A stretch of DNA of 64,000 nucleotides from an uncultured Roseburia sp. GTDB taxonomy: Bacteria; Bacillota; Clostridia; Lachnospirales; Lachnospiraceae. The position numbers and the translations under genes are program-made. Below the pieces are notes generated by a model, which ran no database searches, was not told the DNA's origin, and worked only from the letters and a program-made list of their open reading frames with translations. Location: the NCBI GenBank assembly GCA_947649645.1, contig CANSSP010000002.1:124001-188000 (forward strand), in the 5' to 3' direction. Every line of letters begins with the position of its first letter. Positions within the stretch are counted from its first letter, which is position 1. Positions 49,987 to 55,409 of the stretch are shown piece after piece.

Positions 49987-51252
49987 TTATGCCTCCTCAA
50001 TTTCCCAGGTTATCATCTCAAGCAGATTTTCCAGCTGCGCCAGTTCCTCCGGCGTACATTCAGAAACAATACACAGACGTACCTCCCCGTCAAGACCGCT
50101 CACAGAAAGCTGCAAGGCAGGTTTCTTCTTCCTTGGGCCTGCAAAAATCAGCGCGTCCGGAGCATTTTTTTCCAATACCAGCTGTTCTCCCTTTATGTTT
50201 CCGAGGTTTGTCATGCCAATGGACATATTGCCATATACTTTTTCACCGGCACGGACAACCAGCGGAAAAGGAATTACCTTGTACATTTTCTGTATGGCAA
50301 GAATAAAATCCAGCCCTGCCTTTTTGTCTTTCTTCAAGGCAGTATTCTGCCGCGTTACCTCAGACAAAGTGTATTCGAAATCAGAACCAATGCCACTGGC
50401 AAGATTGATGCTGATGGGACCCGAAAGGTTTGCTATCCCCGCAGAATCGCTTTCCGGAATGTATTTCCGCAGATCCATCATGGACGCCATCCCGACAGGG
50501 GTATCAACGGTTAAATTCATCTGCTTCACATATGCCCTGAAATACGCTGCGAGAATAACATCGTTTACAGTGGCATCTTTCACCAGCTTTCGCCGTCTGG
50601 AAATACTTTCCTTCGGGACAATGCACTCTGCGATGCCAGGAACTCCCTCTTCTTCCGTGAGGTAACAGTATGCGCTTTTGATTTCAGATATTTTTTTCAG
50701 TATCAGTTTATCCACATCAAAAGAAAGCATTTCCGGGTCTCCGGAGTAACACTGCTTTACCGAACGGTTCCCCGATTTCAGAGCAACCTCTTCCCCTGTC
50801 CCTCCCTCAGAGAGCGCATTATAGATTTCTATCAGCTTTTTCAGCAAATAAACGGCGTCCCGCCCATCGGCACACATATGACCGACAAGGAACGCAAAGG
50901 CGCTTTCCGACTGGTTAGAAAACAGACAGCAGCGCACCTGGACTGCACGGGAATAATCGACGGAAAGCAGCGCCGCCTGCTTTGCCGCTTCCAGCACATC
51001 TCCCTCGGCCTCGCTCACGTCCATAAATCCACTTGTCTCATAGTTCTCATTTACATCCCACCTGGTTCCCCATATTCCGACATAGAAAGAACTATGTAAA
51101 ATATCAAGACGTTGAACCATTACTTCCATAGCCTTCTCTAATCGCTGCGCATCGATCCTGCAAGGATATTTTAAAACAAACCGAATGGTATTGTCGTTAA
51201 ACTGATGTGCAATATACTGTGACTTGTCTCCGACTTCTGTCTGAACTTTCAT
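49987..51252 (-). CDS. Condensation-domain / CoA-dependent acyltransferase superfamily protein
   Basis: A 421-residue protein. HMCADGRD (about 131-138) matches the HxxxDG catalytic motif of condensation-domain and BAHD acyltransferases, and DLRKYIPE near 260 plus GMTNLGNIKG near 350 are typical of the stand-alone branch that acylates alcohols or lipids. There is no carrier protein or adenylation gene nearby, so it is not an assembly-line module. AGGAGATAAGCG precedes the start. It is divergent from a TetR regulator, its probable controller. Confidence 0.8.
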   Translation of the reverse strand: MKVQTEVGDKSQYIAHQFNDNTIRFVLKYPCRIDAQRLEKAMEVMVQRLDILHSSFYVGIWGTRWDVNENYETSGFMDVSEAEGDVLEAAKQAALLSVDYSRAVQVRCCLFSNQSESAFAFLVGHMCADGRDAVYLLKKLIEIYNALSEGGTGEEVALKSGNRSVKQCYSGDPEMLSFDVDKLILKKISEIKSAYCYLTEEEGVPGIAECIVPKESISRRRKLVKDATVNDVILAAYFRAYVKQMNLTVDTPVGMASMMDLRKYIPESDSAGIANLSGPISINLASGIGSDFEYTLSEVTRQNTALKKDKKAGLDFILAIQKMYKVIPFPLVVRAGEKVYGNMSIGMTNLGNIKGEQLVLEKNAPDALIFAGPRKKKPALQLSVSGLDGEVRLCIVSECTPEELAQLENLLEMITWEIEEA

Positions 51253-51419: not shown

Positions 51420-52004
51420 ATGCCTTATAAAAATGTTTCCGATCAGCGCAAGGAGATGATCGCTTCAAAGTTTAAAGAGATGCTTCAGACAAAGCCTCTT
51501 TCGAAAATTTCTGTCAGTGAGCTGACCCGCCAGTGCGGAATCAATCGAAAAACATTTTACTACCATTTCGAAGACATTTTCGCGCTGCTCGACTGGACCA
51601 TGGAGCAGGAGACAATCCAGATTATGCACCATTATGATTTACTTACGGATCACAACAGGATTGTCGGCCATATTCTTGATTATATCCATAATAACCACGC
51701 AAGCCTGAATAACGTCTATAATTCCACCGGCAGAAATCAGCTCCATTCCTTTATTTTCGCAAGCCTCCAGAAATTAATAAAATCGTTCATTGAGGAAATA
51801 ATCGATGAGGAAGGATATCAGATAACAACGGAGTACAAAACCTTTCTGACAAATTTTTATACGGGTGGAATCGTGGAAGGTATCATGAACGAGATTTCAA
51901 AATCCATACAATGCGAGAAAGAATTGCTGTCAGCGTACATTTTTATAACATTCCGCGGAGGAATGTACCAGTCATTGCAGGATGCGCATAAAAACAAGTT
52001 ATAA
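51420..52004 (+). CDS. TetR/AcrR family transcriptional regulator
   Basis: A 194-residue protein with an N-terminal helix-turn-helix (KISVSELTRQCGINRKTFYYHFEDI) and a C-terminal ligand domain of the DhaS/TetR_C_8 style (YTGGIVEGIMNEISKS). AAAGGAAGAATACT precedes the ATG. The 167-base divergent gap contains AATGAAAT and ATTTCATGAAA elements that could be part of an operator. The likely target is the acyltransferase gene. Confidence 0.88.
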   Translation: MPYKNVSDQRKEMIASKFKEMLQTKPLSKISVSELTRQCGINRKTFYYHFEDIFALLDWTMEQETIQIMHHYDLLTDHNRIVGHILDYIHNNHASLNNVYNSTGRNQLHSFIFASLQKLIKSFIEEIIDEEGYQITTEYKTFLTNFYTGGIVEGIMNEISKSIQCEKELLSAYIFITFRGGMYQSLQDAHKNKL

Positions 52005-52155: not shown

Positions 52156-52914
52156 TTAATGATGAGAACCATTCTCACAGTGATGCTTTCCTTCCGCGCA
52201 GCCGTCGGCGCTCTCCGCAGTCCCGTCACACCTATGAGATTCAATGTAGTCATCGTCATACTGTGACAGTCTCAGATGAAGCTGATGCATTGTCATATGC
52301 TGGCATTCCTCCGCCGTAATACTCTTATCGTACTTCGACAGCCTCTGATAGACTTCATACTTTCCAAGCGACATCCCACATTCATGTGCCGACGTGACAT
52401 TCGCCAGATCCGCCCGTCTGCACATTCCCTGATAGTGTGTCGAAACCACACTGCTTTTAAGCGCATTCAGAATCTCCTCTTCTTTCGGAGACGCCACCGT
52501 AAGGATCAGGTCTGCGTCCACAGTCAGATACTCCTGCATGCCGTCGCTCTCTACCAACAGCTCCACAGCCTCAATATAGTCACGCCCCATCAGCCGCAAA
52601 TCCTTTAGCACAGATTCTCCCGCTTCATTTCTGCTCTCCACTCCGGTCACGCGGTTCAGACGATTCAGGGTCAGTTCGATGGAAGGATTGACATCCAGAC
52701 TGACATAGGAAACAGGCTTCTCCCACAAATACCATCCTCCGATTCCAATACAGAGGACGAGAACTGAACATATGGCAGCCAGGGGGCGAAAAAACATTCC
52801 GGTTCTCTGACCGGACTGCCGCATCACCTTTTCTGAGAGGATAAGAACCGCAGTATCCTTCATCTGTTCAGTCGCACGAATCGGCTCAAATGCCTGCTGA
52901 ATTTTATTGCTCAA
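52156..52914 (-). CDS. RsgI-like anti-sigma factor with His-rich C-terminus
   Basis: A 252-residue protein: a cytoplasmic N-terminus of about 42 residues, a membrane helix (PLAAICSVLVLCIGIGGWYL) and an outer domain beginning YVSLDVNPSIELTLNRLNRV, the RsgI-type signature. The C-terminal 60 residues are rich in His and Cys (HMTMHQLHLRL, then CDGTAESADGC and HHCENGSHH), a plausible metal-binding tail. It starts at TTG 52914, overlapping the sigma stop as TTGA, so it is translationally coupled to the sigma factor it should restrain. Confidence 0.8.
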   Translation of the reverse strand: MSNKIQQAFEPIRATEQMKDTAVLILSEKVMRQSGQRTGMFFRPLAAICSVLVLCIGIGGWYLWEKPVSYVSLDVNPSIELTLNRLNRVTGVESRNEAGESVLKDLRLMGRDYIEAVELLVESDGMQEYLTVDADLILTVASPKEEEILNALKSSVVSTHYQGMCRRADLANVTSAHECGMSLGKYEVYQRLSKYDKSITAEECQHMTMHQLHLRLSQYDDDYIESHRCDGTAESADGCAEGKHHCENGSHH

Positions 52915-53390
52915 ATCCCCTCACCTCCCAACTCTTTTTTTAACAATTCTCTTCCCCTCGACAGGAGCGAATAGATCGTATTTTCCTTTTTATTCAATAT
53001 GGTCCCGATCTCTTTTGCCGTGTATCCCTCATAATAATGAAGATATATGACATCCTTGTATTTCGCCGGCAGGGAAAGCACGACCTGCAGGACCTCCATC
53101 TGTTCCGGCATCACGCTCGCCGCGTCCTCAGAGAGTGCGTCAAGCGGAACCGTACTGCGCCGGAAGATATTCCTCATAAAATCCTTGCAGGCATTGACCG
53201 TGACACGGATAAACCATGCTTTCTCATGCTCCGCACTCTCAAAGACACCAGAATAGAGGATGTATTTTAGGAATACCTCCTGAAACACATCCTCCGTGTC
53301 AGCATGATTTTTCAGATGCAGAAGGCAAATCCTGCGAATCATGTCAGCATATAATTCTATTGCGCGGTTTACCTCCTGTTCGCTGTGCAT
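52911..53390 (-). CDS. ECF-type RNA polymerase sigma factor
   Basis: A 159-residue sigma factor with region 2 (TEDVFQEVFLKYI, ESAEHEKAWFIRVTVNACKDFMR) and region 4 (YEGYTAKEIGTILNKKENTIYSLLSRGRELL). It has no extra C-terminal domain. It is immediately upstream of and overlapping its anti-sigma gene, and 21 bases downstream of the secreted repeat protein. The regulon is probably this operon plus others. Confidence 0.92.
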   Translation of the reverse strand: MHSEQEVNRAIELYADMIRRICLLHLKNHADTEDVFQEVFLKYILYSGVFESAEHEKAWFIRVTVNACKDFMRNIFRRSTVPLDALSEDAASVMPEQMEVLQVVLSLPAKYKDVIYLHYYEGYTAKEIGTILNKKENTIYSLLSRGRELLKKELGGEGI

Positions 53391-53411
53391 AGGATATCCC
53401 CGTTCTCTTCC

Positions 53412-53930
53412 TTAGTGATGACGTCCTCCGTGATGTCTGCCGCCATGATGGCCGCCGCTCCATCCCTGACCGCTGTAAGTGCCGCCGACACAGTGATCAC
53501 AGATCCCGTCTCCATTTGCATCTACCCAGTAACCGCATGCATTGTGGCTGCTTCCGCCGACGCAGTGATCGCAGATCCCGTCTCCGTTTGCATCCACCCA
53601 GTAACTGCATGTGTAATTTGTAGCCGTCGTTGTGGTTTCTGTCCTGACAACGGTCGGTGTCTCCTGTGTCGCCTGCTTCTCGGGCTGCACCTCAGCCACC
53701 TGCTCAATCTCTGCCCTGGGCGCCTGCTCCACCGCCATCGTTTTCAACTCTGCCGCAATGTTTACCGCCGGGCCGAGCGCAGCAGCGCTTTCCTGTGAAA
53801 GGACAATATCCGTATCCGGGATCTCATCCCCCTTCTGGACATTGCCCGGATGTATGCCTGCGGCAATCACCGGTACCGAAATACCAACCGCCACAAGAAT
53901 AGCCGCCCCTAAAACCAATACTTTTTTCAT
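53412..53930 (-). CDS. Secreted Asp/Cys-repeat, His-rich protein
   Basis: A 172-residue protein with a signal peptide (MKKVLVLGAAILVAVGISVPVIAA), a central acidic/Ala/Thr part, two 24-residue tandem repeats of the form C-YWVDANGDGICDHCVGG, and a Gly/His-only tail (GGHHGGRHHGGRHH). The repeats combine a calcium-loop-like DANGDG with Cys pairs; the tail is a typical Ni/Zn/Cu ligand. So it should bind metal outside the cell. ATG 53930 follows AAGGAGACTGATC. It is the first gene of the sigma/anti-sigma unit. Confidence 0.8.
   Translation of the reverse strand: MKKVLVLGAAILVAVGISVPVIAAGIHPGNVQKGDEIPDTDIVLSQESAAALGPAVNIAAELKTMAVEQAPRAEIEQVAEVQPEKQATQETPTVVRTETTTTATNYTCSYWVDANGDGICDHCVGGSSHNACGYWVDANGDGICDHCVGGTYSGQGWSGGHHGGRHHGGRHH
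53482..53625. repeat. 72-base tandem repeat (two copies)
   Basis: The unit starting CCGCCGACACAGTGATC at 53482 recurs at 53554 with a few changes, a 72-base period that encodes the 24-residue repeat. Similar short repeats may expand or shrink between strains. Confidence 0.85.
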
Positions 53931-54044
53931 GATCAGTCTCCTTCCTGCTTTATTTACTGTCTCATTTATAATACGATACAAACGCACCTTTCCTTGCATA
54001 CATGAAAAAAAAGTTATTTTATTTGCCGGAACAGCCACTTGCCC

Positions 54045-54155: not shown

Positions 54156-55409
54156 ATGAACAGTGAAATCAGAGACATTCATTTAGCCGAATCCGGCGAA
54201 CGCAAGATCGAATGGGTAAAGCGCAACTGTGATCTGCTCCGCACCCTGGAAGCAGAATTTTCAGAGAAAAAACCTTTTGCCGGAAAAAAAATTGCGCTCT
54301 CTGTACACCTGGAAGCCAAAACCGCGTATCTGTGCAAGGTTTTAAAGGCGGGCGGCGCCGAAATGTATGTGACAGGCTCCAATCCGCTCTCCACACAGGA
54401 TGATGTGGCCGCCGCTCTTGCAGCGGATGGAATGGAAGTTCACGCCTGGTATGACAGCACACCGGAAGAATATGAGACACACATCCGCCATACACTCGAA
54501 GCCGGTCCCAACATTATTATCGACGACGGCGGCGACCTTGTCAATATGGTACACAGCCACATGCCGGAGCTGATTCCTGGTATTATCGGCGGCTGTGAAG
54601 AAACCACAACCGGAATTATCCGCCTGGAGGCAATGAACCATGCGGGCGAGTTAAAATTCCCGATGGTCCGTGTCAACAACGCCGACTGTAAACATCTGTT
54701 TGACAATCGCTACGGCACCGGTCAGTCTGTATGGGACGGCATCAACCGGACAACCAATCTGATCGTTGCAGGAAAAATCGTCGTGGTTGCAGGCTATGGC
54801 TGGTGCGGAAAAGGAACAGCCATGAGAGCCAAAGGCTTAGGCGCCCGTGTCATTGTGACAGAAATCGACCCGATCAAGGCCATCGAAGCCGTAATGGACG
54901 GATTTGACGTAATGCCGATGAACGAAGCTGCCAGAGTCGGCGATTTCTTTGTGACGGTAACCGGCTGTGACAAAGTCATCGACGCAGAAGACTTTGCAGT
55001 GATGAAGGACGGCGCAATCCTCTGCAACGCGGGTCATTTTGACTGCGAGATCGATATGGCAGGGCTTCGCAAAATTGCCGTCGAGACAAGAGAACAGCGG
55101 AAGAACATCATGGGCTATAAGCTTCCAACCGGTCAGTGGATTTTTGTGCTGGCGGAAGGCCGCCTGGTCAATCTGGCCGCGGGCGACGGACATCCTGCCG
55201 AAATTATGGACATGAGTTTTGCCATCCAGGCCCTTTCTGCAAAATATCTGGTCGAGCACGGAACAGAGCTGACAGAAAAACTGATCGATGTACCCAGAGA
55301 GGTTGATCTCGATGTGGCAAAGCGCAAGCTTGCCTTCCTCGGAAAAGAAATCGATGTTCTGACGGCAGAACAGGAAAAATATCTCCACAGCTACAATGTA
55401 AACGAATAA
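54156..55409 (+). CDS. ahcY: S-adenosylhomocysteinase
   Basis: A 417-residue NAD-dependent enzyme, the short bacterial type. It splits S-adenosylhomocysteine into adenosine and homocysteine. Motifs are LSVHLEAKTAYL, SNPLSTQDDVAA, the NAD loop VVAGYGWCGKG, TGCDKVI and CNAGHFDCEID. ACAGGAGGACACAAT precedes the start. It is monocistronic, with its own promoter and terminator. Confidence 0.96.
   Translation: MNSEIRDIHLAESGERKIEWVKRNCDLLRTLEAEFSEKKPFAGKKIALSVHLEAKTAYLCKVLKAGGAEMYVTGSNPLSTQDDVAAALAADGMEVHAWYDSTPEEYETHIRHTLEAGPNIIIDDGGDLVNMVHSHMPELIPGIIGGCEETTTGIIRLEAMNHAGELKFPMVRVNNADCKHLFDNRYGTGQSVWDGINRTTNLIVAGKIVVVAGYGWCGKGTAMRAKGLGARVIVTEIDPIKAIEAVMDGFDVMPMNEAARVGDFFVTVTGCDKVIDAEDFAVMKDGAILCNAGHFDCEIDMAGLRKIAVETREQRKNIMGYKLPTGQWIFVLAEGRLVNLAAGDGHPAEIMDMSFAIQALSAKYLVEHGTELTEKLIDVPREVDLDVAKRKLAFLGKEIDVLTAEQEKYLHSYNVNE

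Follow-up and report, generated by a model that had tools for sequence, protein, structure and literature searches.

A conserved operon of an ECF sigma factor, an RsgI-like anti-sigma factor and a secreted His/Cys-rich protein in gut Clostridia: a candidate unit for extracellular metal handling

The window, by which we mean the whole 64,000-nucleotide stretch of DNA analysed, contains on its minus strand one operon encoding a secreted His/Cys-rich protein, an ECF sigma factor and an RsgI-like anti-sigma factor. This trio is a conserved system in gut Clostridia, with a promoter and a small target set, and metal sensing is the best inference that its sequences allow.

Results

Layout of the operon and the sigma factor

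The three leftward genes that an earlier note on this DNA had reported within 1.8 kb were all found where it had placed them on the minus strand: the secreted partner of 172 aa (53412..53930), the sigma factor of 159 aa (52911..53390), and the anti-sigma factor of 252 aa (52156..52914), the four-base overlap claimed between the latter two holding provided that the TTG start assigned to the anti-sigma factor is correct. The neighbouring genes, which encode an S-adenosylhomocysteine hydrolase (54156-55409, plus strand), a TetR-type regulator (51420-52004, plus strand) and a condensation-domain protein (49987-51252, minus strand), gave no sign of belonging to the operon; nor was any metal transporter or metal regulator noticed adjoining it. 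Around the operon there was no Rfam match, and consensus sigma-70 promoters and terminators showed no surplus relative to shuffled sequence.

The sigma factor scored above cut-off with Sigma70_r2 (35.0 bits), Sigma70_r4_2 (51.8 bits) and TIGR02937 (73.6 against a cut-off of 42.9) and, being a short protein with regions 2 and 4 only, is of the ECF type (group IV). The presence of region 4 ruled out a strict SigI, which is about 230 aa long and lacks that region, and a CorE-type ECF factor was ruled out as well, the protein stopping after region 4 with no Cys-rich sensor extension. The label "RsgI-like" in the earlier note was apt for the extracellular domain of the anti-sigma factor (RsgI_M), the paired sigma being an ECF factor and not SigI.

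The anti-sigma factor

In Pfam, at E values up to 1, RsgI_M was the only family matched in the anti-sigma factor (81.3 bits against a cut-off of 25.3), the N-terminal part remaining unmatched; a strict SigI/RsgI pair was rejected on this count too, since the cytoplasmic domain expected there, RsgI_N, was not detected. The protein comprises a membrane helix at about residues 42-65 (52720..52791, minus strand), hydrophobic in sequence and helical over H42-65 in the structure model; an extracellular RsgI_M (SEAL-type) domain at about residues 66-217 (52264..52719, minus strand), on which Pfam, the model and the fold match concur; and a disordered His/Cys tail at residues 227-252 (52159..52236, minus strand), where the pLDDT fell below 50 and whose terminus, as had been pointed out before, is rich in His and Cys and reads KHHCENGSHH. 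All ten best matches of the model in the structure search were RsgI extracellular domains, eight of them at E <0.001, and these fold matches included 8t9n, 8hep, 8her, 8hdj, 8heq and 8u9o; solved RsgI structures were the best sequence matches too.

The residues N76-P77-S78 were invariant in 24 of the 24 aligned anti-sigma factors, and the Pro corresponding to Pro77 is the first residue of the solved RsgI chains. Asn-Pro is named as the self-cleavage bond of RsgI in the excerpted text of PMC12203970, and by analogy the window anti-sigma factor probably cleaves itself at the predicted bond Asn76-Pro77 (52684..52689, minus strand). Three related anti-sigma factors outside the 24-row alignment, those of locus L178 (about 2000, minus strand), locus L186 (about 1740, plus strand) and locus L099, lack the Asn-Pro bond and carry Gly-Ser or Gly-Ala in its stead. 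Since SEA domains are cut at Gly-Ser, the cleavage chemistry of these three may have switched and not vanished.

The window genome encodes exactly one RsgI_M protein, namely the anti-sigma factor of the operon, and one Peptidase_M50 (site-2 protease). Within the last 40 residues, the 48 anti-sigma factors of the ECF-trio type had a median of 5 His, against a median of 0 in 28 other RsgI_M proteins (p 6e-7).

The secreted partner

The partner consists of a signal peptide-like N-terminus, a spacer, two repeats and a His tail, and homologues of it were found. The C-x-YWVDANGDGICDHC repeats that had been ascribed to it, two in number, are present, and its terminus is indeed HHGGRHHGGRHH: repeat 1, CSYWVDANGDGICDHC, at residues 108-123 (53562..53609, minus strand); repeat 2, CGYWVDANGDGICDHC, at residues 132-147 (53490..53537, minus strand); and the tail HHGGRHHGGRHH at residues 161-172 (53415..53450, minus strand). 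No Pfam or NCBIfam family scored above cut-off on this protein, the calcium-loop repeat families among the Pfam models (TSP3, EF-hand, dockerin) included, and solved structures resembled it by sequence at chance level only.

Among the 42 complete partners described below, every one had 3 or more Cys downstream of its signal peptide, and the repeats occurred in up to six copies in the Lachnospiraceae loci. D-x-[DNQ]-x-[DN]-G loops were present in 33, His-free partners among them; the 9 loop-less ones were still rich in His and Cys, His making up 5-23% of the mature part. Stand-alone secreted proteins with the same kind of repeat, having neither a sigma pair nor a promoter match upstream, were observed at L057, L060 and L061.

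Conservation of the trio

A profile built from 24 relatives gave RsgI_M-type matches in 128 of 397 Lachnospiraceae genomes, the trio type constituting the high-scoring part; the sigma factors were 56-96% identical to that of the window (23 comparisons). For the counts that follow we used 48 Lachnospiraceae loci, obtained from a 60-row table of loci where a motif rule had found an anti-sigma plus a sigma factor, upon removal of 12 rows on account of sigma length or name. A complete secreted partner was present in 42 of the 48, directly upstream of sigma in 39 and adjoining the pair in 3 (the partners of L004, L095 and L097, which lie beside the pair, and those of L010, L093 and L096 were assigned by hand). 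The six remaining loci comprised three with a partial partner at contig ends (L036, L058, L080), one with a degenerate partner (L042) and two in which none was seen (L091, L098). Three further loci scored as relatives outside the table: L105, a trio with a two-mismatch promoter site, and the damaged copies L099 and L092. The order of the three genes, whose recurrence in other Lachnospiraceae the earlier note had proposed as a check, was conserved there and likewise in other families of the order and class. The flanking genes vary from locus to locus.

Two loci showed peculiarities of their own. On contig 39 of G190 (L042/L157) the degenerate partner lies upstream of sigma, and an intact relative with a perfect promoter site lies about 2.6 kb off, on the other side of the pair; at L180 the signal peptide frame continues straight into sigma, a configuration suggestive of a partner lost to a deletion or an assembly error.

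Co-variation of His between the two tails

We counted residues in the last 40 positions of the anti-sigma factors and the last 25 of the partners. Over the 42 loci the His numbers of the two tails were strongly correlated (rho 0.735, p 3e-8), and phylogenetic contrasts computed over the sigma tree upheld this (r 0.726, p 5e-8); His ranked first among the 11 residues compared by contrasts, with weak values for R, N and E (r 0.31-0.34, with R at 0.33 and N at 0.34). The correlation was not accounted for by GC content, held for other window sizes and in the loci with at least 3 His, and recurred in loci from other families, with rho 0.84 in 14 loci and 0.83 in 17 after the addition of L178, L183 and L186 (L180 and L181 were excluded for want of a clear partner). 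As for other parts of the proteins, partner-tail His had a rho of -0.005 with sigma His and a weak 0.33 with SEAL-domain His, and anti-sigma tail His a similarly weak 0.36 with SEAL-domain His. A similarity in whole composition between the tails also appeared (p 0.0014), yet two control comparisons were significant as well, and because control regions were equally similar we set that test aside and used the His result alone.

Such a co-variation is expected if both tails meet the same ligand. Where His is scarce, it is scarce in both tails, with none in either at L007 and L171 and one or none at L043, L066, L082 and L184; His-poor tails are rich in R, K, G and N. The earlier note had named homologues with missing His/Cys tails as evidence against a metal signal, and this minority with little or no His in either tail does touch that point, the loss being concerted; these systems show that the design can do without His, and they may use another metal or ligand. 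Cys behaved otherwise than had been supposed: no co-variation of Cys between the tails was found in the 42 loci, contrasts included, and Cys in the anti-sigma tail is neither conserved nor co-varying among the relatives, so that it has to be dropped as a general feature.

The promoter and its targets

The upstream regions of the homologous operons have in common the motif TGMAWGG-N15-TCGTATTA, a shared promoter such as the earlier note had suggested seeking. In the window a perfect match, TGCAAGG-N15-TCGTATTA (53969..53998, minus strand), stands 38 bases before the ATG as the predicted promoter of the operon, and we presume that the sigma factor recognises this site as its own. In the 1500 bases ahead of sigma, perfect sites came up in 25 of the 48 loci, while the best site had one mismatch in 10, two in 4 and more in 9, so that a promoter with at most two mismatches was found in 39 of the 48; the reversed pattern, as a control, had at least 3 mismatches at its best in all 48. 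In each of the 39 sites, moreover, a T lies 5 bases downstream of the searched pattern, a conservation that extends beyond the letters searched. As to the other 9 loci, L014, L036, L058 and L080 are short of upstream sequence or located at the end of a contig, L004, L095 and L097 have the site beside the adjoining partner, L089 has three mismatches and L098 has no site.

The window genome contains two perfect sites, one at this operon and the other on a different contig, where it stands 45 bases ahead of the start of an unlinked gene for a secreted protein of 264 aa with 26 His and 18 Cys. This protein lacks the D-x-[DN]-x-DG-x-C-D loop and is composed of repeats of the form C-x-V-x-G-C-K-K-T-G-x-H-x-H-x-G-x-x-Y-Y-G-H-S, in a sequence unrelated to the operon partner; orthologues of the gene and of its site occur in G202 and G199. 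On contig 53 of G424 (L154) an unlinked perfect site precedes the gene of another secreted protein, of 276 aa with 41 His and 28 Cys, made of C-x3-C-x2-H-x3-H repeats. Sites with one mismatch lie ahead of His-rich secreted genes adjoining the pair in G057, G427 and G256, and in G057 also ahead of an unlinked repeat protein. Of four His/Cys partners that are unlinked or divergent, three gave nothing above cut-off in Pfam, and the other, L155, combines its repeats with a Flg_new domain.

In the 43 genomes that bear the system we counted 31 perfect sites, spread over 26 of them, whereas 43 genomes with no anti-sigma match yielded a single one; 24 of the 31 are circular as evidence because the motif was drawn from those very operons. 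The other 7 comprise 3 before unlinked secreted His/Cys genes (G199, G202, G424); 1 before a secreted gene near the anti-sigma factor (G190); 1 ahead of a broken sigma gene that lacks a partner and whose anti-sigma tail is free of His (G356); 1 at a contig end (G141); and 1 inside another reading frame, with no secreted His/Cys gene (G410). We placed the weight on perfect sites because, at one mismatch, the pattern matched 84 times in the 43 genomes and the control 59 times; in the window genome, sites with two mismatches were dismissed as noise, 14 matches with up to two mismatches having been obtained against 26 for the backward control. The same one-mismatch site was observed in G334 and G323 (L159, L160) before the same small membrane protein, which has an HLGLHW motif and no Pfam match.

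Parallel loci of the SigI type

At L015, L016, L102, L103 and L106, a canonical SigI-type sigma factor of about 230 aa and a short His-tailed RsgI have a secreted His/Cys gene as a neighbour, upstream of which we found ACCCTA-N18/19-TCGTA; a CGWA motif is named for SigI in the portion of PMC10575876 consulted. In a set of 33 RsgI loci not of the ECF type, such a neighbour was present in 5 of the 8 with at least 3 tail His against 1 of the 25 without (p 0.0013), a test that embraces about three independent lineages, L015 and L102 being from one genus and L016 and L103 from another; the sole match among the loci without a His tail, L049, resembles an antisense reading frame.

Discussion

The metal signal put forward in the earlier note gains from the single operon, the conserved order, the shared promoter, the co-variation of tail His and the unlinked His/Cys target, and loses the Cys of the anti-sigma tail from its argument. 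Taking the observed gene order, promoter, small target set, domain family and fold, and concerted His content together, we lean, on balance, towards an autoregulated signalling unit for extracellular metal handling, for which we infer self-cleavage, metal as the signal, the identity of that metal and the feedback. In this scheme the membrane anti-sigma factor would keep the ECF sigma factor inside the cell, its outer SEAL/RsgI-type domain self-cleaving at Asn76-Pro77 into halves that stay together, with the disordered tail beyond. A transition metal—Zn, Ni or Cu most likely—would meet the outer tail and loosen the cleaved domain; the signal, acting on either the tail or the SEAL domain, would make the domain come apart, upon which the site-2 protease (Peptidase_M50 family) would cut the membrane helix and free the sigma factor. 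From TGMAWGG-N15-TCGTATTA promoters this latter would then transcribe its own operon together with a small number of unlinked genes, and the secreted metal-ligand repeat proteins would bind the same metal, either as a buffer or in competition with the anti-sigma tail, thereby turning the signal off. The proteolytic steps are proposed on the ground of kinship with RsgI, and metal as the ligand because the unrelated repeat types of the targets share only His and Cys and the His content is concerted. Buffering of excess metal fits best with the sponge-like products; a scavenger role under metal shortage is a possible alternative direction.

A unit answering to envelope stress, in which the anti-sigma factor would sense damage to the wall or surface and the secreted proteins would form surface or matrix material with His and Cys in a structural role, seems to us unlikely. 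The RsgI of B. subtilis has been linked to wall synthesis, SigI/RsgI acting with RasP in answer to the loss of class A PBPs (PMC7478892, as far as its excerpted text goes); His-free systems exist, and the Cys found in every complete partner could form disulfides. Against this stand the fact that His is the one residue co-varying strongly between the tails and the nature of the promoter's unlinked targets, which are His/Cys repeat proteins of unrelated repeat type and not wall enzymes. Those same targets weaken the idea that the tails sense pH or charge, their clustered His becoming charged in mild acid in response to fermentation acid while Arg/Lys/Gly-rich tails keep a fixed charge: the R-, K-, G- and N-rich composition of the His-poor tails and the weak co-variation of R and N would suit it, but it leaves unexplained both the C-x3-C-x2-H-x3-H or C-x4-C...H-x-H repeats and the Cys richness of all 42 partners, and we hold it to be quite improbable.

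The loops of the partners raise the question of calcium, which the D-x-[DN]-x-DG-x-C-D loops would bind with the tails as mere accessories. Although the loop occurs in 33 of the 42 partners, those free of His included, the other 9 have none and are rich in His and Cys instead, no calcium-loop family of Pfam reached its cut-off, and the unlinked target in the window genome is without the loop, for which reasons we give calcium sensing little credence. Finally, small, secreted, fast-changing proteins encoded with a regulator of their own might be antimicrobial or signalling peptides whose production is under the control of the sigma pair; this we regard as very improbable indeed, since the loci listed show no recurrent immunity gene, peptidase or exporter next to the trio and up to six copies of a repeat suit binding more than killing.

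To return to the metal-handling unit, its parts are of known kinds. With the SigI/RsgI systems of Clostridium thermocellum and Bacillus subtilis it shares the RsgI_M domain, the NPS bond and the single membrane helix; it differs from them in having an ECF sigma factor with region 4, an anti-sigma N-terminal part with no Pfam match, a short disordered His tail at the sensor end where those have a carbohydrate-binding or other module, and secreted His/Cys proteins as targets in place of cellulosome genes. CorE carries a Cys-rich sensor end of its own, whereas the 159-aa window sigma is devoid of such an extension and is paired with an anti-sigma factor. With respect to the cobalt-nickel system CnrH/CnrY/CnrX of Cupriavidus, no separate sensor of the CnrX kind was seen here, a SEAL domain being present instead, and the output consists of secreted proteins and not of efflux. 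The likeness lies, for CnrH/CnrY/CnrX, in an ECF sigma factor with a membrane anti-sigma factor and a proposed answer to outside metal (PMC12153292, PMC8103513, both in excerpt), and for the CorE type in an ECF sigma factor in a metal response (PMC8103513, in excerpt), putative in our case. Acinetobacter SigAb with AabA/AabB is likewise an ECF operon with an anti-sigma factor, SigAb activity being copper-linked, and the excerpted text of PMC12153292 describes for it neither a SEAL domain nor a secreted His/Cys repeat protein. In the open literature of PMC we found no paper describing an ECF sigma factor together with a His-tailed SEAL-type anti-sigma factor and secreted His/Cys repeat proteins.

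As a tentative possibility, one may envisage a recurrent design of gut Clostridia, occurring with both ECF and SigI sigma factors, in which a disordered His tail on a self-cleaving anti-sigma factor would match the His tail of the proteins under its control, a metal being bridged or shared between the tails, so that a secreted metal sponge might report its own loading state to the cell, while the class of the sigma factor would set the promoter.

Metal supply shapes gut communities, and to our knowledge few extracellular metal sensors are known in Clostridia. The trio offers a compact and testable candidate: its signalling domain is known, a single promoter motif serves it, its targets number as few as two genes in the window genome, and its ligand-rich proteins lend themselves to production and titration. 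As read from its sequences, it suggests a so far undescribed route of sensing and catching metals outside the cell in Clostridia, and, if that is true, signalling of the self-cleaving RsgI type would reach beyond the sensing of polysaccharides and the wall, embracing ECF sigma factors and a ligand that is small and soluble.
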